A stretch of 64,000 nucleotides of DNA from Tragulus kanchil. Taxonomy: Eukaryota > Chordata > Mammalia > Artiodactyla > Tragulidae. The DNA lies in contig JAIOJX010000025.1 of the NCBI GenBank assembly GCA_022376925.1, positions 183,147,801-183,211,800 of the forward strand, written 5' to 3'. Below are positions 3,906 to 63,404 of this stretch, one piece after another. Each line of letters starts with the position of its first letter. Position 1 is the first letter of the stretch. The notes beneath the pieces are model-generated. The model ran no database searches, was not told the origin of the DNA, and saw nothing but the letters and a program-made list of their open reading frames with translations. The position numbers and the translations under genes were made by a program.

Positions 3906-5092
3906 TATATATGAGGGTGTCTGTTTTTTCTTCAATCTTGCATGATAAATTTTTAGTTTTCTTTTTTTTTTCTTTTAAAGGCAAACACATATAAAATAGA
4001 CAATCAGCAAGTAAATACCTTATAATGTGTATTGAGGTTGAACATTTTCTCATTGGGGTTCCTTTCTTCTATTTAATTTGGTAATTACATTTTCCTTTTC
4101 GGTAACTTTTTCTTTCCTTTGCTAACTCACCTGTGGGAGTCTTCATGCTTTGCTTGTTTGTTTCTCATATTTGTTGAATTATTTTCCTAGTTGTCTGGTT
4201 ATCATTATATTTTCACTTTTGCCTTGGAAATATTTTAATTGATATACAATTGTTTGGAAGAGTGATTTTCAAATATAAACACCAGGTGTAATGCAGGTAC
4301 AAGCCTATAAGTTTGGATGCTGTCTGTGTACGTTACCTACATCCATCCATCCATCTTTCCCTCTATGAATTATGCTATCATTTCTGAGAGTAGAAAATTT
4401 TCTCCCTGCAAAACAAGGGAATTAAATGGAATCATATTTTAATTTTTATTTATATAGGTTATTTTCTCTAATTCACCAGAAATGGTTTTGTTGTATGGAA
4501 TTGTATAATTATCTAAATATATTGTGTTCCAAGTTGTTGGCTAATTGTCCTAGCTCTGTTTCCTGAAAAATCCTAGTTTTTCTGGGAATTGACTTACGGT
4601 TAATTATTTATCATATATTAGGATGTAATAAGGTCTTTTTTCTGACTTACTATTCTTAATGGTATTTTCCCACCAATATCACATTATTTCTATTTTTATA
4701 GCTTTATAAAATATAGTGTAATTCCCCTTTAAAAATTTCTTGACTATCCTGTTTATTTTTATAGGCTAACCTTAGAATCATTTGGTCAAAATCAAAGGGG
4801 GATTTTTACTAGAATTGTAGCAAACCACACATTCATTTAGGAAGAATTTAAACCTTTTCAACACTCAGCACTTCCATGTGATCTGTCTCTCTCCTTTTAT
4901 GTAAGGTTTCATTTATAGATCTCCTCAAAGTCTTCTACCTTTCTTTACATAGGTCACACAGTTTCCATCAGAATTATTTATGATATATCATTTTTGTTAT
5001 TGGAAATAGGATATTTTAAATTACTTTTTACATTATTATTTTTTAATTTTGGTCCCTTTTATTGATTTTTTAAATTTGTTTATTTTAATCCA

Positions 5093-5311
5093 TCTTTATT
5101 CTTCGACCTGTGTGGGCCTCCCATTGCACTGGCCTCTTTTGTTACAGAGCACCCACTCTGGGCACATGTGCTCCAGAGCACTGGCTCGTAATTGGACACA
5201 CTGGCCTAGCTCCTCCTCAGCATGTGGGATCTTCCCCAGCCAGGGATGGAACCGGTGCCCCTTGCACTGCAAGGTGGACTCTTTACCCACTGAATCACCA
5301 TGGAAGCCCTG
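5093..5311 (-). mobile_element. CHR-type tRNA-derived SINE, first copy
   Basis: The reverse strand begins GGGCTTCCATGGTGATTCAG and contains GGGAAGATCCCACATGCTGA, GCTCTGGAGCACATGTGCCC and GGGAGGCCCACACAG. The same family is at 45326-45560. Confidence 0.75.
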
Positions 5312-6206
5312 ATTTTTGACATTATTTTTCATAATCTTTGTCTATTTTGGATTCAAACTCCTAAATTTTATTAAATTTTGATAGTTTCTACCTCACTACT
5401 TTAGATTTTCTAGATGCACGAGTACATGAGCAATAAAGAATTCTTTCATTTTTCAATATTTATCTTTGTTTTTAATTATTTTTCCTTTGGTCAAAATTTC
5501 TCAAATGATGTAAAATATAATGATAAGAAGCTGGATTTTGGTTCTTGACTTTGCTGTCTTACCTTCTACTGACTGTCAGCTATTACTATGAAATATACAT
5601 ATTTTTCATGATAGGCAGATTTTCTAATATTTCTACTTGGATTTTTGAAATAGAAATTGGTCACAAATTTTATGAAATGTGTTTGTACTGTTTGTTCAAA
5701 TGATATACCTTTTTGTTGCCTTTGACCTATTGCTGTAGTATATGCTAATATAACATATTATTTGCAGATCATTGCTGAAGTACTACATTATATCATGTTT
5801 AGCTCAATCAGAAATTTTTATAAAATATAGTGTAATTCCCCTTTAAAAATTTCTTGACTATCCTGTTTATTTTTATAGGCTAACCTTAGAATCATTTGGT
5901 CAAAATCAAAGGGGGATTTTTACTAGAATTGTAGCAAACCACACATTCATTTAGGAAGAATTTAAACCTTTTCAACACTCAGCACTTCCATGTGATCTGT
6001 CTCTCTCCTTTTATGTAAGGTTTCATTTATAGATCTCCTCAAAGTCTTCTACCTTTCTTTACATAGGTCACACAGTTTCCATCAGAATTATTTATGATAT
6101 ATCATTTTTGTTATTGGAAATAGGATATTTTAAATTACTTTTTACATTATTATTTTTTAATTTTGGTCCCTTTTATTGATTTTTTAAATTTGTTTATTTT
6201 AATCCA

Positions 6207-6425
6207 TCTTTATTCTTCGACCTGTGTGGGCCTCCCATTGCACTGGCCTCTTTTGTTACAGAGCACCCACTCTGGGCACATGTGCTCCAGAGCACTGGCT
6301 CGTAATTGGACACACTGGCCTAGCTCCTCCTCAGCATGTGGGATCTTCCCCAGCCAGGGATGGAACCGGTGCCCCTTGCACTGCAAGGTGGACTCTTTAC
6401 CCACTGAATCACCATGGAAGCCCTG
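6207..6425 (-). mobile_element. CHR-type SINE, second copy (segment 1)
   Basis: Same element as 5093-5311, carried in the right copy of doubled segment 1. Confidence 0.75.
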
Positions 6426-6927
6426 ATTTTTGACATTATTTTTCATAATCTTTGTCTATTTTGGATTCAAACTCCTAAATTTTATTAAATTTTGATAGTT
6501 TCTACCTCACTACTTTAGATTTTCTAGATGCACGAGTACATGAGCAATAAAGAATTCTTTCATTTTTCAATATTTATCTTTGTTTTTAATTATTTTTCCT
6601 TTGGTCAAAATTTCTCAAATGATGTAAAATATAATGATAAGAAGCTGGATTTTGGTTCTTGACTTTGCTGTCTTACCTTCTACTGACTGTCAGCTATTAC
6701 TATGAAATATACATATTTTTCATGATAGGCAGATTTTCTAATATTTCTACTTGGATTTTTGAAATAGAAATTGGTCACAAATTTTATGAAATGTGTTTGT
6801 ACTGTTTGTTCAAATGATATACCTTTTTGTTGCCTTTGACCTATTGCTGTAGTATATGCTAATATAACATATTATTTGCAGATCATTGCTGAAGTACTAC
6901 ATTATATCATGTTTAGCTCCAATCAGA

Positions 6928-7665
6928 AAGCAAAGAGGAACTAAAGAGCCTCTTGAGGAAGGTGAAAGAGGAGAGTGAATAAGCTGGCTTAAAACTCAAC
7001 ATTCAACAAATTAAGAGCATGGCATCCGGTCCCATCTCTTCATGACAAATAAAGTGGGCAAACAATGGAAGCAGTGACAGACTTTGTTTTGGGAGGCTCC
7101 AAAACCACTGCAGATGGTGACTGCAGCCATGAAATTAAAAGACACTTGCTCCTTGGAAGGAAAGCTATGAAAAACCTGGTCAGGATATTAAAAAGTAGAG
7201 ACATCATTTTGCTGACAAAGGTCTGTGTACTTAACGCCATGGTTTTTCCAGTAGTCATGTACAGATGTGAGAGTTGGTTCATAAAGAAGGCTGAGCACCA
7301 AATAATTGACGCTTTAGAACCATGGTGCTGGAGAAGACTCTTGAGAGTTCCTTGGACTGCAAGATCAAACCAGTCAATCTGATAATTGAATACTCAAATT
7401 AACTCTGAATATTCATTGGAAAGACTGATGCTGAATCTGGAGCTCCAATCCTTTGGCCACCCGATGAGAAGAGCTGACTCATTGGAAAAGATTCTGACAC
7501 TGGGAAAGATTGAGGGCAAGAGAAGAGGGCGACAGAGAATGAGATGGTTGGATAGCATCACTGACTCAATAAGTCTGAGCAAACTCCAGGAGATGGTGAA
7601 GGACAGTATGCTACAGTCCATAGGGTCACAAAGAGTCAGATACAACTTAGTGATGACAAAACACC
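6928..7665 (+). mobile_element. BovB LINE 3' portion (~740 bp)
   Basis: Longest BovB piece in the window. Frame pieces include LGGSKTTADGDCSHEIKRHL, LLGRKAMKNL, VLNAMVFPVVMYRCESW, then CWRRLLRVPWTA and RQRMRWLDSI, matching the C-terminal part of BovB ORF2. The frame is broken near 7384. Ends AGTCAGATACAACTTAGTGA. Confidence 0.92.
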
Positions 7666-8615: not shown

Positions 8616-10917
8616 ACGGGGACGTCACCAAGCAATGGTTCTATTTGCAATGTCTCAGGGCTCCAGTTGGCAAACAGTGCTGGGAAGAAGCTGGGGAGAT
8701 TTCAAAACCTCGGGGCATGCTTTTCAGCCCTTGGTCCCCCTCCATCTTGCCTCTTTCTTCCCATTTTCTCTGGGTTAGCTGAGTGCTCCCAATGTTTCTA
8801 AGGTCAGTTAGCAGGTTAGAAACTCTCAAGGCATACTGACCTGCCTCATCACAGTATTTACTGTCACTATACTGTCTCATAACACAGAAGCTTCTACTGG
8901 CCCTCTCTGTGGCTTTGTTCACAGCCTGCCGGCAAAAAGGTCGTTTATATATTATAATCGAAATCCTTGAGCTGAACTATTTTTTAATTACAGCTTCGAT
9001 AGTGGAAGTTGTTACGGGATGGGAAAGGAGGCCAGCTGGGGCTTTGCCTCTCTTTGATCACAAGGCCCTGCTTTGATCAGAGAGACAACAGCTCGTAAAA
9101 GAGGCTGGCCTCTTCTTGAAATGTGCAGGTAAACAGAGGGATCCTTTGAAACGATTATGGAATGAGCAATCAGATCTCAGACAATGGTCTTCTTTAAACT
9201 GGATTTAGGGGGTATGGATGAACACAGCATAGGGGACTGGATGGATGAAAAAAAAAATGGTGATTTTTGTCCCTGGGGAAGGTGCATTGAGAGGTCACCA
9301 AGGTGGTGCTCTGGGGTTAGATTTCTGGGTCTCCCTTGGTTCCTGAAGGGTGTTCAGGCGAACTGGTCTAAGGTGAACACCACAAGTAACCTTAAGGAGA
9401 AGAACTCCTTAAGAGAAGGGAGAAAGCCTGCAGACTTTGGAGTCAAGAAACACTTGAGATAAAATCCTAGTCTCTCCCAAATAGAAGTGTCCTGTATTAT
9501 GTACAGATAAAAATGTCTGTGCACAAGGCTTGTAAAGTTTGCTGGGTCAATGTTTCTAACCTAAATTGATGTCATTTTCATTTTAAATGTAATCCTATTT
9601 GTTAAGTGATATATTTTGTACTTTTCAAAATTTGTAACATTTTGTGATTTTTTTTCGTTCAGTACTGTGTTTGTTCTTGTTCTTGCTGTTCAGTCATGTC
9701 TGACTCTTTGAGACCCCGTGGATATAGCCCACCAGGCTCCTCTGTCCACGGGATTCTCCAGGGAGGGGGCCAAACGGGGACGTCACCAAGCAATGGTTCT
9801 ATTTGCAATGTCTCAGGGCTCCAGTTGGCAAACAGTGCTGGGAAGAAGCTGGGAGATTTCAAAACCTCGGGGCATGCTTTTCAGCCCTTGGTCCCTCCAT
9901 CTTGCCTCTTTCTTCCCATTTTCTCTGGGTTAGCTGAGTGCTCCCAATGTTTCTAAGGTCAGTTAGCAGGTTAGAAACTCTCAAGGCATACTGACCTGCC
10001 TCATCACAGTATTTACTGTCACTATACTGTCTCATAACACAGAAGCTTCTACTGGCCCTCTCTGTGGCTTTGTTCACAGCCTGCCGGCAAAAAGGTCGTT
10101 TATATATTATAATCGAAATCCTTGAGCTGAACTATTTTTTAATTACAGCTTCGATAGTGGAAGTTGTTACGGGATGGGAAAGGAGGCCAGCTGGGGCTTT
10201 GCCTCTCTTTGATCACAAGGCCCTGCTTTGATCAGAGAGACAACAGCTCGTAAAAGAGGCTGGCCTCTTCTTGAAATGTGCAGGTAAACAGAGGGATCCT
10301 TTGAAACGATTATGGAATGAGCAATCAGATCTCAGACAATGGTCTTCTTTAAACTGGATTTAGGGGGTATGGATGAACACAGCATAGGGGACTGGATGGA
10401 TGAAAAAAAAAATGGTGATTTTTGTCCCTGGGGAAGGTGCATTGAGAGGTCACCAAGGTGGTGCTCTGGGGTTAGATTTCTGGGTCTCCCTTGGTTCCTG
10501 AAGGGTGTTCAGGCGAACTGGTCTAAGGTGAACACCACAAGTAACCTTAAGGAGAAGAACTCCTTAAGAGAAGGGAGAAAGCCTGCAGACTTTGGAGTCA
10601 AGAAACACTTGAGATAAAATCCTAGTCTCTCCCAAATAGAAGTGTCCTGTATTATGTACAGATAAAAATGTCTGTGCACAAGGCTTGTAAAGTTTGCTGG
10701 GTCAATGTTTCTAACCTAAATTGATGTCATTTTCATTTTAAATGTAATCCTATTTGTTAAGTGATATATTTTGTACTTTTCAAAATTTGTAACATTTTGT
10801 GATTTTTTTTCGTTCAGTACTGTGTTTGTTCTTGTTCTTGCTGTTCAGTCATGTCTGACTCTTTGAGACCCCGTGGATATAGCCCACCAGGCTCCTCTGT
10901 CCACGGGATTCTCCAGG
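8616..10917. repeat. Doubled segment 2 (offset 1155-1158)
   Basis: 8616-9762 recurs at 9774-10917. Differences are homopolymer lengths, for example four versus three G near 8695/9850 and five versus three C near 8733/9893. The left copy breaks off in the middle of a Bov-tA SINE, and the right copy continues through the complete SINE. No gene in either copy. Confidence 0.95.
9672..9762 (-). mobile_element. Bov-tA SINE cut off by the segment-2 junction
   Basis: Reads TCATGTCTGACTCTTTGAGA to GGGATTCTCCAGG and stops at the junction. The complete element is at 10826-11033. Confidence 0.85.
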
Positions 10918-12455: not shown

Positions 12456-14722
12456 TAGCCTTGCAGGACACAGCTTCTGTGAAAACTCTGCACACTGTCG
12501 ACTTCTAAGACAAAAGCCGCTTTTCAAAATTGATGGTCCTATAGGTATATACTGTGAACCCACATTTTTTTTTTCTCCTCAGTAGTTTTCCTTGGAGGCT
12601 GGAACATTCTAGAACCTTGCTGCTTACAGTGTGGTCTGTGGATCAGCAGCATCAGCTGCACCTGGACCTTGTAAGACATACCACCTCTCAGGTCCTGCCC
12701 GCGAGCTGTGGAACTGTTCTCTGGATTTCTCGCCAGAACCCCAGGTGCCTTGTGGGTCCATGAGAGCGTAGAAGTGTGGTCTCTGGATGTGAGCTCCCAC
12801 CGCTTCTGGCCACCTGTCCACCTCTCACCTCCAGAGTCCAGCCTTCTACCAACTTCCACTCCTGTAGGAAGCTGCCCGCCCAGCGTCCCCAAGGTGTTCC
12901 ATGGGCGTGGCCACGTGTTGCGCCCCATCGAGTTCCTCCTCCTGTCTCCTCTGAATGCCCACTTCCTTCCTTTCTTCTGTCCTGGATGGAGCCACAGTCT
13001 GTCCAGGGTGGGCCGGTGCTTGAAGCCTCTTTGTCTCCTTCTGTATCTAATCCAGCAAGTACGGCTGACTTTCTTCTTTCAAAATGTTCTCTGTGTCTGT
13101 TTCCCCTCTCTTTTCTCACTGTGCTTGACCAGTGTGGGTTTTCATCCCCGACCCTCTGGATTAGTAAAAGCTATTTACAGTAGATTTACTGACTTGCAGC
13201 TTAGGATTCCTTTGTTTCTGATGGCAACCTCTGCTTCCCTTTGGTTGCCTGGCAACGTTCACTCCTTCCTTAGGATTCTGCTCAAAAACCTTCTACAGAA
13301 CTTTTTCCTGACCTGCATATTCACCCCAGGAATCCTTTTTTGCTCCTGTTTCCTTAGTAACTGTGCCTCAGTGTCCTCATCTGTGAAAGAGGTTGTATAG
13401 AAGTGTGTACAGAATGAATGGGTGAAGTTCATGGAGCAGTAGCTGACACAAAACATTTCATAAGCCTTAACTGTTATGTTTGCAAACATTTTCAACTTCC
13501 TGACAAGTGGTCTGCGCCTTCTCTTTCCCTTGGTCGATACCAGGTTTCTGAAACTAGCCAGGGGTCTACTAGAGTTACCAGAGGTAGCCTTGCAGGACAC
13601 AGCTTCTGTGAAAACTCTGCACACTGTCGACTTCTAAGACAAAAGCCGCTTTTCAAAATTGATGGTCCTATAGGTATATACTGTGAACCCACATTTTTTT
13701 TTTCTCCTCAGTAGTTTTCCTTGGAGGCTGGAACATTCTAGAACCTTGCTGCTTACAGTGTGGTCTGTGGATCAGCAGCATCAGCTGCACCTGGACCTTG
13801 TAAGACATACCACCTCTCAGGTCCTGCCCGCGAGCTGTGGAACTGTTCTCTGGATTTCTCGCCAGAACCCCAGGTGCCTTGTGGGTCCATGAGAGCGTAG
13901 AAGTGTGGTCTCTGGATGTGAGCTCCCACCGCTTCTGGCCACCTGTCCACCTCTCACCTCCAGAGTCCAGCCTTCTACCAACTTCCACTCCTGTAGGAAG
14001 CTGCCCGCCCAGCGGCCCCAAGGTGTTCCATGGGCGTGGCCACGTGTTGCGCCCCATCGAGTTCCTCCTCCTGTCTCCTCTGAATGCCCACTTCCTTCCT
14101 TTCTTCTGTCCTGGATGGAGCCACAGTCTGTCCAGGGTGGGCCGGTCTTGAAGCCTCTTTGTCTCCTTCTGTATCTAATCCAGCAAGTACGGCTGACTTT
14201 CTTCTTTCAAAATGTTCTCTGTGTCTGTTTCCCCTCTCTTTTCTCACTGTGCTTGACCAGTGTGGGTTTTCATCCCCGACCCTCTGGATTAGTAAAAGCT
14301 ATTTACAGTAGATTTACTGACTTGCAGCTTAGGATTCCTTTGTTTCTGATGGCAACCTCTGCTTCCCTTTGGTTGCCTGGCAACGTTCACTCCTTCCTTA
14401 GGATTCTGCTCAAAAACCTTCTACAGAACTTTTTCCTGACCTGCATATTCACCCCAGGAATCCTTTTTTGCTCCTGTTTCCTTAGTAACTGTGCCTCAGT
14501 GTCCTCATCTGTGAAAGAGGTTGTATAGAAGTGTGTACAGAATGAATGGGTGAAGTTCATGGAGCAGTAGCTGACACAAAACATTTCATAAGCCTTAACT
14601 GTTATGTTTGCAAACATTTTCAACTTCCTGACAAGTGGTCTGCGCCTTCTCTTTCCCTTGGTCGATACCAGGTTTCTGAAACCTAGCCAGGGGTCTACTA
14701 GAGTCAGAGTTACCAGAGGTAG
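12456..14722. repeat. Doubled segment 3 (offset 1128-1135)
   Basis: 12456-13584 recurs at 13585-14722. Differences: G/T near 12889/14018, a lost G near 13018, a lost C near 13555, and a six-base CAGAGT present only in the right copy near 14705. Content is unassigned sequence plus an L2/MIR-like stretch. Confidence 0.95.
13250..13400 (+). mobile_element. L2/MIR-like fragment
   Basis: TTTTTCCTGACCTGCATATT resembles the L2 3' end. GTGCCTCAGTGTCCTCATCT resembles the MIR core. Repeated at about 14378-14528 by segment 3. Confidence 0.4.
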
Positions 14723-16833
14723 GCTCAGTGCACAGTATTTAAAAAACAATAGAGGCTACAAGGACTTTGGGGTGTTACCTAAAGGAGGAAGCCGACACGA
14801 ATGTGCCATCAGTGTGGTCGATTTATGGCTTTGAATTGGTGCCCGGAAGCTGTTTACAGAGTGAGTATTTTTAAAAATGAGAAAAAAATATACAATTAAA
14901 GAGATGTGTCAAGACGCTTCTCCTGTGTATTGAGAGTTTTCTCTGACTGACACACTTAGGTAATGACGGCTCTTTGAATAATGGTGCTGTCTTCCTAATT
15001 AAACCATCAAGAACACCAGTTATTACTTCAGTAAGGCTAGGGGTCAAAAGTCTAGAACGTCAAAGAAAAGAGATTTTAAATGGACAGAAATGGTAATAAA
15101 ATGGAAATTTGTTCCCTGATGCTTTTCTTTGTCTTAGTAACTCTTTGTGGCCTGAGTATATGTCTCTCCTTCCATTTAAATAGCTTTTGGTCACTCCATA
15201 TAAAAGCCAGCTTGGGAAGTACAGAGAACACACTCTCACTGGAATCAGATGGAGCCGAGTCCAGGCCTATTCGTTGTGTGGCCTTAAACCGATCGCTTAA
15301 CCCCTCAAAGCCTCCGTTTCCCCCTCTTTAGAGAGGGGAGATTCAATCCCAAACCCTAAACGTGGCTGTGGGGTGAAGCTCGATGACAGGCGTGCCATGA
15401 ACACACGTGCGGCTCCTTCGCGGTCACGCCGGCAGGAACTCTGCTTCACTTTGTTTCTAAACCAAATCAAATCTGGCTCAACCGGCACTCTCAGAGTCAA
15501 AGGAAAAGCTAGACACGTTTTTAGGGACTCCTTCCTAGGTTGTTCCAGGAGTGGGAGGAAGAACTACAGGCGTTTCTTGGGCTGAGGACGCCATTCTGAG
15601 TCTGTCTGGCCCAGGGCCAGGTGGCGCAGAGCTCCGCTGCCCACCGCCTCCTCGTGGAGCTGCACAGCTGCCGGGGGCAAATCTCATGCACAAAACATTT
15701 CATAAGCCTTAACTGTTATGTTTGCAAACATTTTCAACTTCCTGACAAGTGGTCTGCGCCTTCTCTTTCCCTTGGTCGATACCAGGTTTCTGAAACCTAG
15801 CCAGGGGTCTACTAGAGTCAGAGTTACCAGAGGTAGGCTCAGTGCACAGTATTTAAAAAACAATAGAGGCTACAAGGACTTTGGGGTGTTACCTAAAGGA
15901 GGAAGCCGACACGAATGTGCCATCAGTGTGGTCGATTTATGGCTTTGAATTGGTGCCCGGAAGCTGTTTACAGAGTGAGTATTTTTAAAAATGAGAAAAA
16001 AATATACAATTAAAGAGATGTGTCAAGACGCTTCTCCTGTGTATTGAGAGTTTTCTCTGACTGACACACTTAGGTAATGACGGCTCTTTGAATAATGGTG
16101 CTGTCTTCCTAATTAAACCATCAAGAACACCAGTTATTACTTCAGTAAGGCTAGGGGTCAAAAGTCTAGAACGTCAAAGAAAAGAGATTTTAAATGGACA
16201 GAAATGGTAATAAAATGGAAATTTGTTCCCTGATGCTTTTCTTTGTCTTAGTAACTCTTTGTGGCCTGAGTATATGTCTCTCCTTCCATTTAAATAGCTT
16301 TTGGTCACTCCATATAAAAGCCAGCTTGGGAAGTACAGAGAACACACTCTCACTGGAATCAGATGGAGCCGAGTCCAGGCCTATTCGTTGTGTGGCCTTA
16401 AACCGATCGCTTAACCCCTCAAAGCCTCCGTTTCCCCCTCTTTAGAGAGGGGAGATTCAATCCCAAACCCCTAGCGTGGCTGTGGGGGTGAAGCTCGATG
16501 ACAGGCGTGCCATGAACACACGTGCGGCTCCTTCGCGGTCACGCCGGCAGGAACTCTGCTTCACTTTGTTTCTAAACCAAATCAAATCTGGCTCAACCGG
16601 CACTCTCAGAGTCAAAGGAAAAGCTAGACACGTTTTTAGGGACTCCTTCCTAGGTTGTTCCAGGAGTGGGAGGAAGAACTACAGGCGTTTCTTGGGCTGA
16701 GGACGCCATTCTGAGTCTGTCTGGCCCAGGGCCAGGTGGCGCAGAGCTCCGCTGCCCACCGCCTCCTCGTGGGCACACCTGTCTGCACAGCCTCAGTTCC
16801 CAAGGAAGTGGTGATAAAGGCAAATCTCATCAT
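14575..16833. repeat. Doubled segment 4 (offset 1114)
   Basis: 14575-15688 recurs at 15689-16833. The left copy ends with a scrambled, shortened version (15655-15688) of what the right copy reads at 16770-16833. The first ~130 bases also occur at 13447-13577, so that stretch is present three times. Both copies contain a MIR. Confidence 0.93.
15230..15340 (+). mobile_element. MIR SINE (copies at 15230 and 16344)
   Basis: GAGTCCAGGCCTATTCGTTG, TGTGGCCTTAAACCGATCGC and AGCCTCCGTTTCCCCCTC follow the MIR core order. Second copy 16344-16455 through segment 4. Confidence 0.65.
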
Positions 16834-17102: not shown

Positions 17103-17492
17103 GAAGCCAACTGCTAGCTATGCCGTCTGGAAGGTGCTTGAACATACGTTGGGCTATACAGTTTGATTCTGTGTGTGTGTGCATGTGTGTGGGGGGTGTT
17201 AATCTATCACCTACACGTTGCTCACTTTCTCACCAGAGTGCCCTCACTGATGCAGACAGAAGCAAATGTCTGCTAACCATACTGGATTAATAGCTTGGGC
17301 TTTACTGAGTAACTCAGTGAACGTCTGAAGTGGTTTTTTATTAGGGAATGAATCTGTTAACCTGAATGACGCATATTAGAGATGGACTCCCAGTGGTGAC
17401 ATTAAACATATGTGATCCACTAGAACACTTTGCAGACACTCCCTGCCACACGGAGGGAATCCTGCAAGGTCCCCAGCCTGCGCCCTGGGGGT
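17103..17492. other. Unassigned sequence with a short TG-rich run
   Basis: A GTGTGTGTGTG run at about 17170-17191. Nothing else recognised. Confidence 0.4.
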
Positions 17493-17872
17493 GACGTCCC
17501 AGGCTATCACAAGCTCCCTTCCTGTCCACATCACCTTCTTTGCGTCTCTGTTCTTAAAGAGCTAGCCCAAGGCATCCTTCCAGAGAGAAAATCGTGCTAT
17601 GTCCTCCTCCTGCCCGTGCTCGCAGCACCCAGCTGTGGCGTTGTTGGGATGTGGCCCACAGCCGGCAGGCAGCTCCTCCTCTCGACCCAGATGTGGTGGC
17701 CTGAGAGCGCCTCATCTTGAAAACTTCGGCTTGGATTCCCACCTGCTTTTCGTGGGTCTCCTTAGCCTATGATCAGTTTAGGGACTCTGATCCTACCACC
17801 GAGTCATGACAGGTTCACCTTCTGTGTTGGTCTGGAGCACCAGGTAGATTTCTGTTTTGGCCTTTGGTCTCT

Positions 17873-18090
17873 GTGCTTCCCAGGGAGCGCCGTGGTAAAG
17901 AGCCCGCCTGCCAGTGTAGCAGACATAGGACACATGAGTTTGATTGCTGGGTTAGGAGGAGCCCATGGAGGACAACCCACTCCATATTCTTGCCTGGAGA
18001 ACCCCTATGGACAGAGGCGCCTGGTGGGCTGCAGTCCATAGGGTCGCAAAGGGTCGGACACGACTGAAGCAACTCAGCACATACACACTC
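17873..18090 (+). mobile_element. Bov-tA SINE, first copy
   Basis: CTTCCCAGGGAGCGCCGTGG, GTTTGATTGCTGGGTTAGGA, TATTCTTGCCTGGAGAACCC, GGTCGGACACGACTGAAGC. Confidence 0.92.
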
Positions 18091-33842: not shown

Positions 33843-33896
33843 TAAATCAAAACCTATTTGCTATTCAGCCTGAGAATTGGGAAGAGGTAGGGTCTG

Positions 33897-42998: not shown

Positions 42999-43064
42999 AA
43001 AAAAATTTTTTTTTCAAAGCCATGGGCATAGAAGAGAAAACACAGCCTGGCAATCCATCACCTG

Positions 43065-50477: not shown

Positions 50478-50907
50478 CACTTTCCTAGCTCTTTTCTCCG
50501 TCTTACCCCCTCCACTCCCTTAAAGATTTACTGAAGAAGAACCTCTCCATAAATCTGTGCTTGGAACTCTGGTCTCAAGCTCTGCTTCTGGGAATCTCAG
50601 CCTAAGGCACACTCTCCCTTCTCTGCTCTTTTTCAATTCCCTCTTCGCCAGAACTGGCTGAAATGACCTATCACTGTGGCCTGGCACCATATACACAGTT
50701 AACGCTAAAAAATTTCTTCTCTCATCCTCCTCATTCACACAGGGTGGACAAAGGAGATGAAAGTCCTTGAAGCCCAGAGCCCTCAAACGAGGTTTTCATG
50801 ACCTTCGTATAACAAATCGTTTAGAAAAATAGGCAAGTGGAGGCACTGATTTGTAATAATGGGGAGATGAAGGCCTCCTGGGTGGAGCTGCGAGGATTAG
50901 CTGAAAT

Positions 50908-51057
50908 AAAGGCTCCTCTGTCCATAGGATTCTCCAGGCAAGAACACTGGAGTGGGTAGCCACTGCCTTCTCCAGGGAATCTTCCCAGCCCCGGGACCAA
51001 CCTTGGGTATCCTGCATTGGAGGCAGATTCTTTGCTGTCTGAGCTACGAGGGAAGCC
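50908..51057 (-). mobile_element. Bov-tA SINE, 3'-truncated, first copy
   Basis: GGCTCCTCTGTCCATAGGAT, CCAGGCAAGAACACTGGAGT, head GTCTGAGCTACGAGGGAAGC. Confidence 0.9.
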
Positions 51058-51074
51058 TGAAATCAAGTCTGTGG

Positions 51075-51130
51075 ACTTTACAAGGTGTTTGGTACAGGGT
51101 AAGCACTCAGTGAGCGCAAGCCACTGCCCC
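51075..51130 (+). mobile_element. MIR 3' fragment (also 52203-52258)
   Basis: TTTGGTACAGGGTAAGCACT then CAGTGAGCG resembles the MIR tail. Short. Confidence 0.45.
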
Positions 51131-51410
51131 TGTATCTGACCAGCCGCAGGAAGCCAGGTCAGTCCTTGCTTTCCTGTCCTTGTGTCCAAGGGCAGCAGAG
51201 TTCATGGCAAAGAGGAGGCACCTCTGAATCTGCCCACGCTGCAGTGAGTGGGGAAGAATCTGTACTTTATAAAGATGGGCTGTTGTCGCAGTTCCAGTCC
51301 ACGTGGAATTTGGGTCATAAATTCATGCTCAGTGCTTCTCATCACTTTGGGCAGATTTCTCTGCCAGGCTCACAAACACCCAGACTCACTCGCTCTGGTC
51401 ATTAACACAG

Positions 51411-51416
51411 TTTATT
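51411..51416 (-). terminator. Second copy of the LDB2 poly(A) signal
   Basis: Same AATAAA hexamer and same flanks as 52539-52544, displaced 1128 bases inside a doubled segment. Not counted as an independent alternative poly(A) site. Confidence 0.45.
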
Positions 51417-52035
51417 ATTGGCACACTTATCAGTAAAGCATACATAAAATACAGCTGTTTTATAACACATGGAGCCACTGTGTCTTTACATGTATAGAGG
51501 AACATATTAATATGCGAATGGAAAAATTAGTTCTTTTATAAAGTTTCACATAAATACACTGGAATTGCCCCAAAGAAAAGTCCCCATAAAAATGAAGTAT
51601 TCTTCACTTTCCTAGCTCTTTTCTCCGTCTTACCCCCTCCACTCCCTTAAAGATTTACTGAAGAAGAACCTCTCCATAAATCTGTGCTTGGAACTCTGGT
51701 CTCAAGCTCTGCTTCTGGGAATCTCAGCCTAAGGCACACTCTCCCTTCTCTGCTCTTTTAAATTTCCCCTCTTCGCCAGAACTGGCTGAAATGACCTATC
51801 ACTGTGGCCTGGCACCATATACACAGTTAACGCTAAAAAATTTCTTCTCTCATCCTCCTCATTCACACAGGGTGGACAAAGGAGATGAAAGTCCTTGAAG
51901 CCCAGAGCCCTCAAACGAGGTTTTCATGACCTTCGTATAACAAATCGTTTAGAAAAATAGGCAAGTGGAGGAACTGATTTGTAATAAGGGGGAGATGAAG
52001 GCCTCCTGGGTGGAGCTGCGAGGATTAGCTGAAAT

Positions 52036-52185
52036 AAAGGCTCCTCTGTCCATAGGATTCTCCAGGCAAGAACACTGGAGTGGGTAGCCACTGCCTTCTC
52101 CAGGGAATCTTCCCAGCCCCGGGACCAACCTTGGGTATCCTGCATTGGAGGCAGATTCTTTGCTGTCTGAGCTACGAGGGAAGCC
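52036..52185 (-). mobile_element. Bov-tA SINE, second copy, just beyond the LDB2 3' end
   Basis: Same element as 50908-51057. It lies about 350 bases beyond the LDB2 poly(A) signal in the direction of transcription and in the same orientation as the gene. Confidence 0.9.
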
Positions 52186-52519
52186 TGAAATCAAGTCTGT
52201 GGACTTTACAAGGTGTTTGGTACAGGGTAAGCACTCAGTGAGCGCAAGCCACTGCCCCTGTATCTGACCAGCCGCAGGAAGCCAGGTCAGTCCTTGCTTT
52301 CCTGTCCTTGTGTCCAAGGGCAGCAGAGTTCATGGCAAAGAGGAGGCACCTCTGAATCTGCCCACGCTGCAGTGAGTGGGGAAGAATCTGTACTTTATAA
52401 AGATGGGCTGTTGTCGCAGTTCCAGTCCACGTGGAATTTGGGTCATAAATTCATGCTCAGTGCTTCTCATCACTTTGGGCAGATTTCTCTGCCAGGCTCA
52501 CAAACACCCAGACTCACTC

Positions 52520-53622
52520 GCTCTGGTCATTAACACAGTTTATTATTGGCACACTTATCAGTAAAGCATACATAAAATACAGCTGTTTTATAACACATGG
52601 AGCCACTGTGTCTTTACATGTATAGAGGAACATATTAATATGCGAATGGAAAAATTAGTTCTTTTATAAAGTTTCACATAAATACACTGGAATTGCCCCA
52701 AAGAAAAGTCCCCATAAAAGAAGCAGATGAGGGCTTTACAAAATATTATACAGGAAATATACTATGAAAAGAAACAACAGTCAACTCAGATACAATAAAA
52801 AAAAACACAAAAGAGTTTCATATTTATTAAACTGCCCACAAAATTAATGGATTACATGGCTTGAAAAATATTTGGATCGACAGCAATTTTACAAATGCAT
52901 ACATTCTCAAGGGGCCAAGTGCCTTTCTTTACATACAAATCTGCCTTGGTGTCTTTGATGACAAAAAGACATTTCTTGTTTCAGCACTCGGGCTCGAGGA
53001 CCGATTGACATTAGTTCGGCCATAAATTACCCTGCTGGGTCCTCTTAGCTGTTACCCAATGAAAGAAGAGGTGAAAGAGAGGGAGGGGGAAAAAAAAAGG
53101 TACATTTAAATTACTTTCCAAAAGCAGATATTTTTTCCTTTTCTTTTTTACTGAAACAAGAAACTCTCAGATGCAAGTCGAAAAGCAGAAAATATTTTAC
53201 AATATTAAAAAGTCATCTGTAGCTGGGTTCAGCATAGAGTGGGGTCCTGAGCACTGAGGGTTTACTGACAGATGGCCTTCGCTGGATGGCTGGATGCGGG
53301 GTGGAGAGAGAAAAGGAACAGCGTGGATCACACGGAGCTGGGAGAAGCGCTCGTATTGGCTCTGGTCTCAGTTACGGTCAGTGCCAGCATCTGTTACCTG
53401 TGAAGGCCTCCAGGCAGGGAGGGGTCATGGAGGTTTGTTTGGAATGGTCCTCTCAATTTAAAAAAAAAAGAGAAAAGAAAAACTCAGATCACGGCTGTTT
53501 AGACCTCGGCATTTGCGTGGCAACGTTTGAATGTCTGGTCCTTCCTCTCCTGTAAGTAAGGATCTGAAATAGTGAGCGTGACCCCCGGGGGCTATGGACA
53601 GTGGATCTGGAGCCAGTCCCTC
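52520..53622 (-). other. LDB2: LDB2 3' untranslated region (approximate extent)
   Basis: From the stop codon the minus strand continues about 1.1 kb without another long frame to an AATAAA hexamer at 52539-52544. The sequence is A/T-rich, with T-runs and A-runs around 52796-52806 and 53091-53099, and holds no SINE between 52719 and 53622. The distal 200 bases (52520-52718) are repeated at about 51392-51591 because of segment doubling. The end position is inferred from the poly(A) signal and was not observed from transcripts. Confidence 0.65.
52539..52544 (-). terminator. LDB2: Candidate LDB2 poly(A) signal AATAAA
   Basis: The plus strand reads TTTATT, so the minus strand carries canonical AATAAA. 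About 20-45 bases further along the minus strand is a G/U-rich stretch (GTCTGGGTGTTTGTG), as expected downstream of a cleavage site. It lies about 1.08 kb past the stop codon. Confidence 0.6.
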
Positions 53623-53853
53623 TTACTGGGAGGCCTGGGGAGGGGGGTTCTCTGATTTGGTCTCTTGAGTGGCCGGAGGTTTACTGTTCCATGGGCTGCT
53701 GTTCCCCAGGGCGGGTGAACTGGTGAAGTCTTCCTCGTCGTCCATGCCGTTGGCCGCATCATACTGCGTGTTTTCTAATCTAGTGATTAGCCTTTCGTCC
53801 TCGTCCCCAAACTCACCTCCCATCAGAGTTGGTTCTCCTACCACCATCACATC
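53623..53853 (-). CDS. LDB2: LDB2 terminal coding exon (LIM interaction domain and C-terminus)
   Basis: This exon encodes the last 76 residues and stop of LIM domain-binding protein 2, a nuclear adaptor that binds LIM-homeodomain and LMO proteins and self-associates to bridge enhancer complexes. The translation starts DVMVVGEPTLMGGEFGDED, the LIM interaction domain shared by LDB1 and LDB2, and ends SENPPPQASQ followed by the stop. LDB2 rather than LDB1 is indicated by Tyr in ENTQYDAANG, by GMDDEEDF, and by PPATQETKSENPPP. The splice acceptor is visible: on the minus strand the intron ends TTCACAG and the exon opens GATGTGATG at 53853, in phase 0 with the preceding exon. Near the end it reads DFTSSPALGNSSP, where I recall NN at both TS and NS in the human protein, so these may be lineage changes or base errors. 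This exon occurs once, unlike its upstream neighbour. Confidence 0.95.
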   Translation of the reverse strand, partial: DVMVVGEPTLMGGEFGDEDERLITRLENTQYDAANGMDDEEDFTSSPALGNSSPWNSKPPATQETKSENPPPQASQ

Positions 53854-54530: not shown

Positions 54531-56752
54531 AAACCTGCTGATTGCCAACAAGCCCTGAATTTACCATCTGTTATTCCATGGCGCCTGTCACCTAGCCCCA
54601 CGCAGGCAACCCTGCCACCAATCTGGGCCGTAAAGAGAACCAGCCTGTCCAGCTGGTGCCGTGAAAGGAGGATGAAGAACGCTAATTGGAATTACATCTA
54701 TGAAGCCGGTCGTCGTCAGAGACGGAAGCATGCAGAAAGAATCCATCTAATCCCTCCTTTAAGTACAAACTGTCCTTCCATGCAAACAAGGAAGCCACCT
54801 CCTCGAGCTGGGGGCTTGGTGGCCACCGAGGCAGAGGCTCAGGGACCGGGGAGAAGGACTCCTGCACAAAGGCCCTGGCCTCTGAGCTCCAAGAGCACCC
54901 TGTGGGGGTGATGGCCGGCCTCTGCACGGGCCGGGGCGTCTGTCAGGGGGATCCCGCTGTGCCGGCTCTGAGCAACTGTCTACCTAAGAGTGCCCAACTG
55001 CCGTCGGCCTCCGCCGAGGCTGGAAAATCGGGCCGGCCAGATGCTTTTGGAGATGTAAGTACGCGTTCCTTGATAGGGAGGCAAACTTGCCTTGACAACT
55101 GTGCAAACATTCTTTTCACTGGGACAGGAGAGGCTTCCTGGGGCAGTCTATGAGTAGAACACTGCTGTGGTCAGGAGGTCCGCGGTCCCTCCAGGGCCCT
55201 TCCAGAATTCTGAAGGTGTTAGTGGGACAGATCCCTTCGTGACCTTCTGGTCTATTCTGGAATGGAAAACCTTGTCTGTTTGCTAGATCGATTCCCCTCA
55301 AATTAGAGGGGAGAGCATCAGTAAGTTTCACATTGTGTTTTAAGACTAATCACTCTTACAAATGGATAACAATGATGTTAAACAGAAATGTCTCCAATGG
55401 AGTAAATGGCCTATAATGGAAACCTGGGTAGACTCGGCAACGAGGTACCAGCAGGGTATTCCATTGTGTGTCCCCAAGAATGTACTGATGATGCCACCAA
55501 GAGCTAGGGGTGATGCCGACTTGGAAGAGGCTCCCGAGGACTCTTAAAGTGAGATGCAGAATAGACAAGGACTCCGAGTGTCAAGAATACCAGTGGGATG
55601 CTAAGTGAACATGGCTTCCACCTGACCCCTTGGGTTGTTGGGGACACAGAAACCTGTATTGCAAAACCTGCTGATTCCATGGCGCCTGTCACCTAGCCCC
55701 ACGCAGGCAACCCTGCCACCAATCTGGGCCGTAAAGAGAACCAGCCTGTCCAGCTGGTGCCGTGAAAGGAGGATGAAGAACGCTAATTGGAATTACATCT
55801 ATGAAGCCGGTCGTCGTCAGAGACGGAAGCATGCAGAAAGAATCCATCTAATCCCTCCTTTAAGTACAAACTGTCCTTCCATGCAAACAAGGAAGCCACC
55901 TCCTCGAGCTGGGGCTTGGTGGCCACCGAGGCAGAGGCTCAGGGACCGGGGAGAAGGACTCCTGCACAAAGGCCCTGGCCTCTGAGCTCCAAGAGCACCC
56001 TGTGGGGGTGATGGCCGGCCTCTGCACGGGCCGGGGCGTCTGTCAGGGGGATCCCGCTGTGCCGGCTCTGAGCAACTGTCTACCTAAGAGTGCCCAACTG
56101 CCGTCGGCCTCCGCCGAGGCTGGAAAATCGGGCCGGCCAGATGCTTTTGGAGATGTAAGTACGCGTTCCTTGATAGGGAGGCAAACTTGCCTTGACAACT
56201 GTGCAAACATTCTTTTCACTGGGACAGGAGAGGCTTCCTGGGGCAGTCTATGAGTAGAACACTGCTGTGGTCAGGAGGTCCGCGGTCCCTCCAGGGCCCT
56301 TCCAGAATTCTGAAGGTGTTAGTGGGACAGATCCCTTCGTGACCTTCTGGTCTATTCTGGAATGGAAAACCTTGTCTGTTTGCTAGATCGATTCCCCTCA
56401 AATTAGAGGGGAGAGCATCAGTAAGTTTCACATTGTGTTTTAAGACTAATCACTCTTACAAATGGATAACAATGATGTTAAACAGAAATGTCTCCAATGG
56501 AGTAAATGGCCTATAATGGAAACCTGGGTAGACTCGGCAACGAGGTACCAGCAGGGTATTCCATTGTGTGTCCCCAAGAATGTACTGATGATGCCACCAA
56601 GAGCTAGGGGTGATGCCGACTTGGAAGAGGCTCCCGAGGACTCTTAAAGTGAGATGCAGAATAGACAAGGACTCCGAGTGTCAAGAATACCAGTGGGATG
56701 CTAAGTGAACATGGCTTCCACCTGACCCCTTGGGTTGTTGGGGACACAGAAG
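54531..56752. repeat. Doubled segment 17 in the LDB2 intron (offset 1100)
   Basis: 54531-55651 recurs at 55652-56752. The right copy skips about 20 bases near its start, and a G-run is five in the left copy and four in the right (near 54810/55911). No repeat family or exon recognised. Confidence 0.95.
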
Positions 56753-56855
56753 TGCCACTTCATTCCAGGTAATCAGGAGGTGATCAGGAACAAAGACAGG
56801 TGAGAAGAGTGGGCTAAGATGTGGTGGAGGACCACACGAGTGTGAATTCCATCTC

Positions 56856-59082
56856 GTGACCTACGTGCAGCACACTTTGAAGGGCTGGGGAAACACATAC
56901 ATCAGGTGTCATGGGGCAGGAGAAGAATGTCAGAACCGACACGTGGGTCTGCATTAGTCTTGTGAGTCCAAGGTCACCGAGAGAGGCTGGGGGATGGGAG
57001 GAGGTGAGCATCATTTGAAAGCAGAAGAAGCCAACTTAAGCGTGATATGAGCCAAGAAGCTCTCCGCCCTCCAGACGCCTTCCTTGTATCAGCAAAGAAC
57101 AGTCATTCCAGAAAAGTCACTATGAAAATAATGATTTGAATCTCTTCAGAGGGGGCTCCTACAGGTTCATAATATGCATGGTGTATCTTTGTTCCAGGAA
57201 CAACTAGAAAAGATGCCCAGGCATAGATACTTCTGAATGTCTGAAATTTCACAGAGATGCCACATTTGCCTTACTGATTATAAAACATCTCCTTAGCCAG
57301 ATGCATGATCATGTGTGTATGTGTGTGTGACTGTGTGTACACACGTGTGCACGTGTGAGTGGTGACCAGATGGCAGGCTATCAAGCAGACATGTGCTAAG
57401 GACTTGGCACACGCCAGGATGCTTGAGACAGTTCCACAGCTGTGCCCAGGACTCCACCCGGCTCTGCTACACTTGCCGGCGAGGACACGGGCTCTCCACT
57501 TGGGTGGGCTTCCCTTGCTGTCCTCACATAACACGAGTGGAGACACAATGCATGCTCAGGGCTCCCTCTACCTAGGGGGTGTTGGCACCCTTTATCCCAC
57601 ACTCCCACATCTTTAAACCTCCCCCCTCATTTAACATCTGGAGGGACACTGCATTTCCTTCTGGTCCCTGCAGGCTTGTGGACCCCCAGGGGGTGAAACT
57701 GGGCCACCTCAGAGTGACCCGTGTGGTCTCAGTGCCCCCTGAGGCAGCCCCTTCTGCTCCTCCCTGCAAACCTTGAGGCACCACCAGCTCTTGCCTGTGT
57801 CACATCTTCTCACTAACGTGTGTTTGTTCCCCGTGGAAAGACCACCCACCTCTGAGAAGGACTGGGCGGGACTCCTTTCAGAGCCCCTCCATGCTCGTCC
57901 TTAAACTGGCCAGAAGGGGTCACTGCTGTTGAGTGACAGGTCTCCATCCCTCCTGGGGTTGAGGCTATCTGTGACCTACCGTGCAGCACACTTTGAAGGG
58001 CTGGGGAAACACATACATCAGGTGTCATGGGGCAGGAGAAGAATGTCAGAACCGACACGTGGGTCTGCATTAGTCTTGTGAGTCCAAGGTCACCGAGAGA
58101 GGCTGGGGGATGGGAGGAGGTGAGCATCATTTGAAAGCAGAAGAAGCCAACTTAAGCGTGATATGAGCCAAGAAGCTCTCCGCCTCCAGACGCCTTCCTT
58201 GTATCAGCAAAGAACAGTCATTCCAGAAAAGTCACTATGAAAATAATGATTTGAATCTCTTCAGAGGGGGCTCCTACAGGTTCATAATATGCATGGTGTA
58301 TCTTTGTTCCAGGAACAACTAGAAAAGATGCCCAGGCATAGATACTTCTGAATGTCTGAAATTTCACAGAGATGCCACATTTGCCTTACTGATTATAAAA
58401 CATCTCCTTAGCCAGATGCATGATCATGTGTGTATGTGTGTGTGACTGTGTGTACACACGTGTGCACGTGTGAGTGGTGACCAGATGGCAGGCTATCAAG
58501 CAGACATGTGCTAAGGACTTGGCACACGCCAGGATGCTTGAGACAGTTCCACAGCTGTGCCCAGGACTCCACCCGGCTCTGCTACACTTGCCGGCGAGGA
58601 CACGGGCTCTCCACTTGGGTGGGCTTCCCTTGCTGTCCTCACATAACACGAGTGGAGACACAATGCATGCTCAGGGCTCCCTCTACCTAGGGGGTGTTGG
58701 CACCCTTTATCCCACACTCCCACATCTTTAAACCTCCCCCCTCATTTAACATCTGGAGGGACACTGCATTTCCTTCTGGTCCCTGCAGGCTTGTGGACCC
58801 CCAGGGGGTGAAACTGGGCCACCTCAGAGTGACCCGTGTGGTCTCAGTGCCCCCTGAGGCAGCCCCTTCTGCTCCTCCCTGCAAACCTTGAGGCACCACC
58901 AGCTCTTGCCTGTGTCACATCTTCTCACTAACGTGTGTTTGTTCCCCGTGGAAAGACCACCCACCTCTGAGAAGGACTGGGCGGGACTCCTTTCAGAGCC
59001 CCTCCATGCTCGTCCTTAAACTGGCCAGAAGGGGTCACTGCTGTTGAGTGACAGGTCTCCATCCCTCCTGGGGTTGAGGCTG
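56856..59082. repeat. Doubled segment 18 in the LDB2 intron (offset 1115-1116)
   Basis: 56856-57966 recurs at 57971-59082. Single-base C differences are near 56862/57978 and 57067/58182. Both contain the TG-rich E-box patch. Confidence 0.95.
57308..57360. repeat. TG/CA alternating tract with two CACGTG boxes (also 58423-58475)
   Basis: Alternating purine-pyrimidine run containing the perfect palindrome GTGTGTACACAC at 57333-57344 and CACGTG at 57342-57347 and 57350-57355. Confidence 0.7.
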
Positions 59083-61118: not shown

Positions 61119-61918
61119 TCAATGAAGGCAGTTAGGTGGTCGAATACTGGGAGAAGGAATTCATTGCCAGGAATCAGGCAGAAGGGACGGAACTGGGGTA
61201 GGTATCAAGAGGAGAGGAAGAAAGTTCTGGCCCAGCTTACCCTCCCGGGGACTACCTTAGCTTTGAGGTTTGGAGTTCAAAGAAGCCCTCCTCTGAGGAC
61301 CTTTTCCTTTGTCAGGACCCAGAAAGAAAGGGGTCGAGAGGTCAAGAGAGATGAGACCAAACCTGGGCTGAACCTCCCCTTAAGCTAATGAACCAGGGAA
61401 AGCAAAATCCACTGAGCTGCATTTTGAGTGGCCTGGAGACCATTACCTGAATCTTCAAATGAGGGGTCACCCCCGTCTGGGGCCGGGGTGTGTGCTGGGA
61501 ACAATTAAATGACCATCTGGAGCCTGAGTGCCCGGAGCCAGCCTCCAGGGCAGCAGAGGGTCCCAGCGATGCGGCCCACAGGCCCCGCCTGTGCCACTGG
61601 GCACGCCACGAAGTGATATTTTAATTAAACCTTCAGTGACATATCTCCTGTCTGTGACTCTCATGGCTTTTTAATTCCGTCCCACTGCAGCACAGACTCT
61701 TCTTCGTATTGCTTTCTAGTTGCCAGTGTGCAGGGGAGGGCTTCCGGACGAAATTCCTCCCCCTCCTCCCAACCGGGTGCCTGCCTGCCTTGCCCTCCCC
61801 GTCTCCAGCCCCGCCTGTTCCAGAAGGTCTTTGCAACTAGAAGAGCCTTTTCTAAGGGCGCCAGGAATGGGGAGTCGGTCGAGGCGGGATTTCAGCCTAA
61901 AAGGAAAGCGAGACTTAC

Positions 61919-62069
61919 AGGTACCTGACTGGACAGACTCAGGTTGGCGGCCGTGGTCTTCTTCTTGCCCCCTGTGCTGTTGGCGGCATTGCCAGCGCTG
62001 CTGTTGGAGGTGCTGCTGGTGGAGTTTTTCCTTTTCTCCGTTTTGTCGTCGGTTGCCTTGTGGGTTCTG
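61919..62069 (-). pseudogene. LDB2: Second copy of the LDB2 penultimate exon, frameshifted
   Basis: This is the same exon with the same splice sites as 63024-63175, displaced by 1105 bases, but 151 nt long. One base is missing from the A-run in the KRRKRK codons (four T at 62032-62035 on the plus strand, five in the other copy), so the frame is lost from the second Lys onward and downstream residues read KGKTPPAAPP. It sits inside one of the 19 doubled ~1.1-kb segments. The likeliest reading is an assembly artefact with a homopolymer error rather than a true exon duplication. If real, inclusion of both exons would disrupt the protein. Confidence 0.85.
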
Positions 62070-63023
62070 CTGCGATACAGGAAAGGGAAGGCAGATCAGT
62101 TCCCTGGGTGAGAGCCACGGTCCCTCCAGGGACGCTGTTTTTGTCAACTAAAAGGAGTAATTGACATTTCGTTCCCATTTCTTTTAACTTGGAAAGCATC
62201 AAAGGACGGAACTGTAAAGGGTAGTTTCAATGAAGGCAGTTAGGTCGAATACTGGGAGAAGGAATTCATTGCCAGGAATCAGGCAGAAGGGACGGAACTG
62301 GGGTAGGTATCAAGAGGAGAGGAAGAAAGTTCTGGCCCAGCTTACCCTCCCGGGGACTACCTTAGCTTTGAGGTTTGGAGTTCAAAGAAGCCCTCCTCTG
62401 AGGACCTTTTCCTTTGTCAGGACCCAGAAAGAAAGGGGTCGAGAGGTCAAGAGAGATGAGACCAAACCTGGGCTGAACCTCCCCTTAAGCTAATGAACCA
62501 GGGAAAGCAAAATCCACTGAGCTGCATTTTGAGTGGCCTGGAGACCATTACCTGAATCTTCAAATGAGGGGTCACCCCCGTCTGGGGCCGGGGTGTGTGC
62601 TGGGAACAATTAAATGACCATCTGGAGCCTGAGTGCCCGGAGCCAGCCTCCAGGGCAGCAGAGGGTCCCAGCGATGCGGCCCACAGGCCCCGCCTGTGCC
62701 ACTGGGCACGCCACGAAGTGATATTTTAATTAAACCTTCAGTGACATATCTCCTGTCTGTGACTCTCATGGCTTTTTAATTCCGTCCCACTGCAGCACAG
62801 ACTCTTCTTCGTATTGCTTTCTAGTTGCCAGTGTGCAGGGGAGGGCTTCCGGACGAAATTCCTCCCCCTCCTCCCAACCGGGTGCCTGCCTGCCTTGCCC
62901 TCCCCGTCTCCAGCCCCGCCTGTTCCAGAAGGTCTTTGCAACTAGAAGAGCCTTTTCTAAGGGCGCCAGGAATGGGGAGTCGGTCGAGGCGGGATTTCAG
63001 CCTAAAAGGAAAGCGAGACTTAC

Positions 63024-63175
63024 AGGTACCTGACTGGACAGACTCAGGTTGGCGGCCGTGGTCTTCTTCTTGCCCCCTGTGCTGTTGGCGGCATTGCCAG
63101 CGCTGCTGTTGGAGGTGCTGCTGGTGGAGTTTTTCCTTTTTCTCCGTTTTGTCGTCGGTTGCCTTGTGGGTTCTG
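63024..63175 (-). CDS. LDB2: LDB2 penultimate exon, intact copy (basic NLS-like region and Ser/Asn linker)
   Basis: The exon is 152 nt and encodes 50 full codons after two bases of a split Ala codon: EPTRQPTTKRRKRKNSTSST, then an Asn/Ser/Gly-rich stretch, KKKTTAANL and LSSQVP. The KRRKRK cluster matches the basic nuclear-localisation region between the dimerisation domain and the LIM interaction domain of LDB proteins. On the minus strand the acceptor is a pyrimidine-rich tract ending GTATCGCAG before CAGAACCC, and the donor is CCT followed by GTAAGT. The donor phase fits the terminal exon at 53853 exactly. A frameshifted second copy lies about 1.1 kb towards the terminal exon. This in-frame copy is contiguous with sequence leading out of the window and is the one to use in a gene model. 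Confidence 0.92.
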
Positions 63176-63178
63176 CTG
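63173..63178 (-). promoter_or_regulatory. LDB2: NAGNAG tandem splice acceptor of the LDB2 penultimate exon
   Basis: The minus strand reads CAGCAG across the intron/exon boundary, giving two possible acceptors three bases apart. The first keeps the Ala of the expected PPAEPTRQ sequence. The second would remove one codon. A pyrimidine-rich tract precedes both. The motif is also present in the duplicated copy at 62067-62072. Confidence 0.6.
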
Positions 63179-63404
63179 CGATACAGGAAAGGGAAGGCAG
63201 ATCAGTTCCCTGGGTGAGAGCCACGGTCCCTCCAGGGACGCTGTTTTTGTCAACTAAAAGGAGTAATTGACATTTCGTTCCCATTTCTTTTAACTTGGAA
63301 AGCATCAAAGGAGAAAGCTGATGATTTACTGTTAGCACAAAATAATGGAAACTCTTTTCTTGAACATCTGTATAAGATGGGTTGTATTTGTTCTGATTTC
63401 ATTG

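Follow-up and report, generated by a model that had tools for sequence, protein, structure and literature searches.

The closest described relatives of the fault reported here are homotype false duplications, which the pertinent passages of Rhie et al. (2021, PMC8081667) define as "overlapping sequences at contig boundaries", with a hummingbird example traced there to a bug in FALCON. In the section of PMC9516828 that deals with them, false duplications are recognised by a read depth that is halved or very low, by gaps in the sequence or in the depth, and by discordant reads. Here we describe a 64,000-nucleotide stretch of the Tragulus kanchil genome assembly GCA_022376925.1 (contig JAIOJX010000025.1, positions 183,147,801 to 183,211,800, forward strand; hereafter the window), in which units of about 1.1 kilobases (kb) stand doubled 19 times in a region holding exons of an LDB2-like gene. 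In our judgement the doublings do not exist in the genome itself. Going by the sequence, they are almost certainly an assembly artefact, in which consensus blocks sharing ~1.1 kb would have been concatenated without removal of the overlap.

The full 64-kb window was compared with itself on the plus strand by the Basic Local Alignment Search Tool (BLAST) with a cut-off of E ≤ 1e-10, which returned 19 head-to-tail direct pairs between positions 4703 and 63312. All 19 pairs are adjacent and on the same strand. The copies, named A and B in the order of the record, are 1043–1156 base pairs (bp) long, share 99.35–99.91% identity and are separated by -1 to 59 bases per junction. The same search gave no further direct repeats longer than 400 bp, and no 1.1-kb doubling at 1-4702 or 63313-64000; each of these two margins is compatible with a single block extending past the window edge. 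The window contains no N bases, the copies being joined without an assembly gap. The doublings are the following:

Doubling 1: 4703 to 6929 (+), A 4703-5814, B 5817-6929, offset 1114 bp, 2 bp between the copies.
Doubling 2: 8616 to 10917 (+), A 8616-9762, B 9774-10917, offset 1158 bp, 11 bp between (filler test not significant).
Doubling 3: 12456 to 14704 (+), A 12456-13575, B 13585-14704, offset 1129 bp, 9 bp between.
Doubling 4: 14575 to 16772 (+), A 14575-15657, B 15689-16772, offset 1114 bp, 31 bp between; A shares 130 bp with B of doubling 3.
Doubling 5: 17487 to 19798 (+), A 17487-18641, B 18648-19798, offset 1161 bp, 6 bp between (filler test not significant).
Doubling 6: 22774 to 25080 (+), A 22774-23929, B 23929-25080, offset 1155 bp, nothing between.
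Doubling 7: 24989 to 27217 (+), A 24989-26103, B 26104-27217, offset 1115 bp; A shares 92 bp with B of doubling 6.
Doubling 8: 27118 to 29280 (+), A 27118-28199, B 28199-29280, offset 1081 bp; A shares 100 bp with B of doubling 7.
Doubling 9: 29994 to 32286 (+), A 29994-31139, B 31145-32286, offset 1151 bp, 5 bp between (filler test not significant).
Doubling 10: 33843 to 36045 (+), A 33843-34944, B 34944-36045, offset 1101 bp.
Doubling 11: 35709 to 37874 (+), A 35709-36763, B 36823-37874, offset 1114 bp, 59 bp between; A shares 337 bp with B of doubling 10.
Doubling 12: 37832 to 39952 (+), A 37832-38874, B 38908-39952, offset 1076 bp, 33 bp between; A shares 43 bp with B of doubling 11.
Doubling 13: 40025 to 42196 (+), A 40025-41098, B 41118-42196, offset 1093 bp, 19 bp between.
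Doubling 14: 43046 to 45292 (+), A 43046-44155, B 44185-45292, offset 1139 bp, 29 bp between.
Doubling 15: 47650 to 49890 (+), A 47650-48754, B 48786-49890, offset 1136 bp, 31 bp between.
Doubling 16: 50478 to 52719 (+), A 50478-51591, B 51605-52719, offset 1127 bp, 13 bp between (filler test not significant).
Doubling 17: 54573 to 56751 (+), A 54573-55651, B 55674-56751, offset 1101 bp, 22 bp between.
Doubling 18: 56851 to 59081 (+), A 56851-57966, B 57967-59081, offset 1116 bp, nothing between.
Doubling 19: 61119 to 63312 (+), A 61119-62206, B 62227-63312, offset 1108 bp, 20 bp between; an LDB2-like exon lies in both copies.

The A-to-B offsets vary between 1076 and 1161 bp (mean 1120.5, sample standard deviation (SD) 25.0, coefficient of variation (CV) 0.022) and sum to 21,289 bp of surplus sequence, the remainder of the window being 42,711 bp. 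When 19 sizes were drawn at random from log-uniform distributions, the lowest CV in 100,000 trials was 0.46 for the range of 0.3–10 kb and 0.25 for the range of 0.5–3 kb. The offset stays constant while the guanine and cytosine (GC) content of the A copies spans 0.33–0.54. With a repeat map built from self-similarity alone, without a repeat library, 1 of the 38 outer boundaries comes within 10 bp of where dispersed self-similar sequence starts or stops, as chance predicts (1.0), and 7 of 76 boundaries fall inside such sequence, whose share of the window is 11%. Because the GC content of the A copies is so wide and the boundaries meet repeat edges at the chance rate, the content of the doubled sequence seems irrelevant to the doubling. 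The original prediction, made from the letters of this stretch, had counted 19 doublings with a unit of 1078–1160 bases and ~21 kb of surplus, figures that are right within 2 bp; its view that the boundaries are independent of repeat ends holds, as does its argument that a constant unit is improbable for unrelated duplications, the observed CV never having been approached in the 100,000 draws of either range.

Taken at face value, the record would represent real biology, namely 19 recent head-to-tail tandem duplications of ~1.1 kb at one locus: the copies are genuinely head to tail in it, near-identical and with no N between them. The single size across 19 sites speaks against such an origin, which we consider extremely improbable, also in view of the differences between the copies. 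Over 21,020 alignment columns the copies differ at 53 places, by 36 insertions or deletions (indels) and 17 substitutions; 19 of the 36 indels are one or two bases long and sit at a run of at least three. The dispersed repeats of the same window (at most 96% identity) show 0.19 gap openings per mismatch (451 hits, reciprocal counting). The differences accumulate at the copy ends: 22 of the 53 are no more than 50 bp from an end, against an expectation of 9% (p = 3e-10), and the count rises to 27 at a distance of 100 bp, against 18%. The direction of base loss depends on the end. Of the 15 indels in the 80 bp next to the left end, 13 lack the base in copy B, with which an untrimmed block would begin; of the 7 in the 80 bp next to the right end, 6 lack it in copy A, with which an untrimmed block would end (Fisher p = 0.002 at 80 bp and 0.0006 at 200 bp). 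The copy interior, at least 200 bp from the ends, holds 18 differences (9 indels and 9 substitutions). Indel-led, end-loaded differences point to consensus error; the pattern would be expected from a consensus dropping bases near block ends, not from evenly ageing duplicates. The substitution-led, evenly spread divergence of biological duplicates is not seen in these copies, and the clustering of indel-led differences at the copy ends is a second point against real duplications.

The same differences bear on a heterotype false duplication, in which the parental haplotypes would be placed in succession. The part of PMC2864568 that treats such cases gives haplotype divergence as a source of adjacent false duplicates in vertebrates, cattle among them, and the 9 interior substitutions could be heterozygous sites, some of them possibly haplotype variants. 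However, two haplotypes leave the fixed length unexplained, and the differences are mainly end-loaded indels rather than single-base variants. Also, 16 of the 19 pairs exceed 99.5% identity, whereas the corresponding passages of PMC2864568 give a median of 98.1% with few pairs above 99.5%. A heterotype origin is hence very improbable.

Where doublings 10 and 11 cover a stretch three times, one position deserves separate note: it reads T, G and T at 34780, 35881 and 36994 in successive blocks, through either an error of the consensus or heterozygosity called separately in each block.

The bases found between A and B (fillers) carry a further trace of the block ends. In an untrimmed join they would come either from the left block, as its frayed tail, and then resemble the flank that follows B, or from the right block, as its frayed head, and then resemble the flank that precedes A. 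In a gap-tolerant test of the 11 fillers of at least 9 bp, junctions 3, 4, 11, 12, 13, 14 and 17 each reach p ≤ 0.008 against random places. A left-block tail is visible at junction 3, where all 9 bp match exactly from 6 bp past the end of B, and at junction 4, where 28 of 31 bp align to bases 11–58 after B with pieces missing. A right-block head is visible at junction 12 (the final 21 of 33 bp match bases 48–70 before A), and the pre-A flank is likewise the best match of the 59-bp filler of junction 11. At junctions 14 and 17, 25 of 29 bp and 18 of 22 bp, respectively, align to that flank with bases missing, while the 19-bp filler of junction 13 opens with an exact 12-mer found 34 bp before A. 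Over junctions 11–14 and 17 together, the matches to the pre-A flank show both missing and added bases. The own flank ranks best among the 11 at 8 of 11 junctions. The summed score of 283.5 was reached in none of 100,000 permutations, and the same loci shifted 500 bp outward gave no excess (sum of 167; permutation mean 184.8). An anchored variant of the test gave p ≤ 0.02 for 9 of 13 fillers, including those of junctions 15 and 19 (0.02 each, versus 0.09 and 0.13 in the gap-tolerant test). At most testable junctions the bases are deletion-ridden continuations of the flanks, again unlike what real duplications would leave, and we know of no biological process that would combine a uniform size with frayed flanks and base loss in a set direction.

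The arrangement of the copies along the window (A1 B1 A2 B2 and so on) is that of a tiling path. Neighbouring overlaps themselves overlap in 5 of 18 pairs, by 43–337 bp, and in all 5 cases the common part is present three times, as would be required if each block held two whole anchors. The steps from overlap to overlap measure 765–4126 bp (mean 2013, n = 18); were they exponential with this mean, the probability that none of the 18 falls below 765 bp, a floor taken from the data themselves, would be ~0.001. The step length thus seems to have a floor, as with fixed-length anchors that overlap only slightly. The complete blocks number 18 and are 1.8–5.3 kb long.

The overlap geometry is demonstrated by these coordinates, and frayed ends are demonstrated at most testable junctions. 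We infer that software rather than biology is at the origin of the doublings and, because the ends are frayed, that both copies represent one locus. In the mechanism that we propose, the window would be a chain of consensus blocks built separately by a long-read assembler, with adjacent blocks sharing ~1.1 kb since both would span the same fixed-length anchor. If the alignment of neighbours on the anchor, followed by its single retention, failed or was skipped, each anchor would appear twice. Poorer consensus and dropped bases at block ends would then give rise to the frayed junction bases and the end-loaded differences. The true sequence of the window would be ~42.7 kb. Untrimmed overlap was also the explanation first offered for the size and orientation of the units; it accounts for both, and the indel-led, end-loaded differences and the directional base loss support it. 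It predicts, in addition, frayed fillers (significant at 7 of 11 junctions) and triple copies (5 of 5 cases), so that all four of these expectations are borne out.

As to the program, an assembler of the wtdbg or wtdbg2 type is the probable source, the anchor being a graph node and the blocks being edge sequences. In this type of assembler, nodes of fixed length are common to consecutive edges, and the edge sequences are made separately and then joined. The default node of wtdbg2 is 1024 bp, with an allowed node overlap of 256 bp. The layout of nodes and edges in wtdbg2 is reportedly set out by Ruan and Li (2020). Nodes of this kind require an overlap length that is constant regardless of the sequence, which is what is found here (1076–1161 bp, CV 0.022), and overlaps of one size combined with blocks of variable size are what the wtdbg2 layout predicts. 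The --node-len values of wtdbg2 given in PMC11087460 are multiples of 256. Among bovids, PMC9635665 names Wtdbg 1.2.8 for the swamp buffalo assembly CUSA_SWP, and the authors of PMC8434745 produced a wtdbg2 version of goat but continued with Flye; the window has no known link to either. The same block-overlap error could have been made by a program of another type, as identical geometry would result from any fixed-overlap process with failed stitching; candidates are a chunk-overlapping polisher or gap filler, and a consensus of tiling amplicons or clones with fixed overlaps. The chunk-wise polishers known to us cut at regular distances, unlike the blocks here with their 1.8–5.3 kb, and another program appears rather unlikely. 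A wtdbg-type origin fits best and is likely. A search of the open-licence literature, at the level of listed abstracts, gave no report of such a failure in wtdbg-type assemblers.

A number of observations weigh against untrimmed overlap or its attribution to such an assembler. The overlap of 1120 bp is longer than the 1024-bp default node of wtdbg2; staggered read intervals or deletion-prone reads could be the source of the excess. Doublings 10 and 11 overlap by 337 bp, more than the wtdbg2 limit of 256 bp. When each overlap is extended by the inferred reach of its frayed bases, the distribution does not narrow, contrary to expectation (mean 1136, SD 26.7 vs 25.0, range 1082–1172). A first scoring of 13 fillers, in which gaps were expensive, gave an unclear signal, with 11 of 200 random places matching the own score in the lowest case; the gap-tolerant scoring was picked after inspecting the fillers, its random-place and permutation controls being scored identically. 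The fillers of junctions 2, 15, 16 and 19 (4 of 11) do not fall below 0.05 in the gap-tolerant test, nor are those of junctions 2, 5, 9 and 16 (4 of 13) significant in the anchored variant. The doublings also look intra-contig, because the window is without N, and within-contig duplications were rarely misassembled single-copy sequence, according to the passages of PMC2864568 on read-overlap assemblers of 2010.

The consequences of untrimmed overlap for annotation can be followed in the LDB2-like gene, which is represented by three matches:

53626 to 53853, (-) strand: LDB2-like last coding exon (LIM-interaction region), with a stop codon directly after; one copy found.
61919 to 62070, (-) strand: LDB2-like upstream exon, copy A, with a run of 4 instead of 5 A that breaks the frame.
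63024 to 63176, (-) strand: LDB2-like upstream exon, copy B, with an open frame.

The last exon matches LDB1 chains of the PDB with a best E of 4.5e-20, which backs the LDB family assignment; the gene itself we take to be LDB2, not LDB1. An exon of this family had been placed within one of the doublings, and it is indeed present in both copies of doubling 19. The frame break in copy A is caused by a one-base homopolymer loss, and the same difference appears in the A/B alignment of the doubling. A homopolymer length change that breaks the frame of one copy of a coding exon is a further point against real duplications. The upstream exon would thus be falsely doubled, with a frame break, and automatic annotation could call a false exon or a pseudo-exon from copy A. 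The assembled intron before the last exon is ~9.2 kb, of which ~3.3 kb would be surplus (offsets of doublings 17–19). A search of viral and prokaryote contigs for an independent copy of the locus, with the last exon as query, gave 14 and 69 pattern matches, none of them confirmed, a result uninformative for mammals.

Tandem Repeats Finder (TRF), whose period limit of 500 makes it blind to a 1.1-kb period, detected 5 small arrays in the window. Among the small repeats, a 29-bp tandem repeat in two copies at 22109-22166 (TRF score 93) lies outside the doublings and is apparently ordinary.

The value of these observations lies in assembly curation; as biology they amount to nothing. The record would carry ~50% surplus over the true sequence of the locus, about a third of the window being surplus. 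The signature, consisting of a fixed offset, end-loaded indels, frayed junction bases and no N, would allow such doublings to be detected and trimmed from sequence alone. It is possible, if doubtful, that the fault is systematic, all block joins in this assembly, or in those of an assembler release, having retained the shared node. A correctly trimmed join leaves no trace, so the window is silent on this point. If the fault were systematic, the genome record would be inflated by up to half the true length, and it would contain very many gapless false tandem duplications and exon doublings, missed by curation based on gaps or haplotypes.

A search of the open-licence literature, at the level of listed abstracts, gave no earlier description of a gapless form with a fixed unit. 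The duplicated overlapping contigs of Kelley and Salzberg (2010, PMC2864568) resemble the doublings in that end-overlapping neighbours were both retained, the cow included; as characterised in the relevant portions of that paper, they derive from divergent haplotypes on separate contigs, with variable size and the above-mentioned median identity of 98.1%, unlike the case here. The resemblance to homotype false duplication is closer. In the passages of PMC8081667 devoted to it, one stretch stands in tandem twice since the overlapping ends of neighbouring pieces are both retained, as would be the case in our window; differing consensus quality is among the marks named by the authors. All 19 pairs have the adjacent, same-orientation copies of the homotype, but no N gap separates them: the homotype unit, as presented there, has about the length of a read and a scaffolding gap between the copies, whereas here a constant 1.1 kb recurs 19 times in 59 kb with no N. 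Because of the absence of N gaps and the fixed 1.1-kb unit, the doublings are best placed as a gapless relative of homotype false duplication, not as a plain member of that class.

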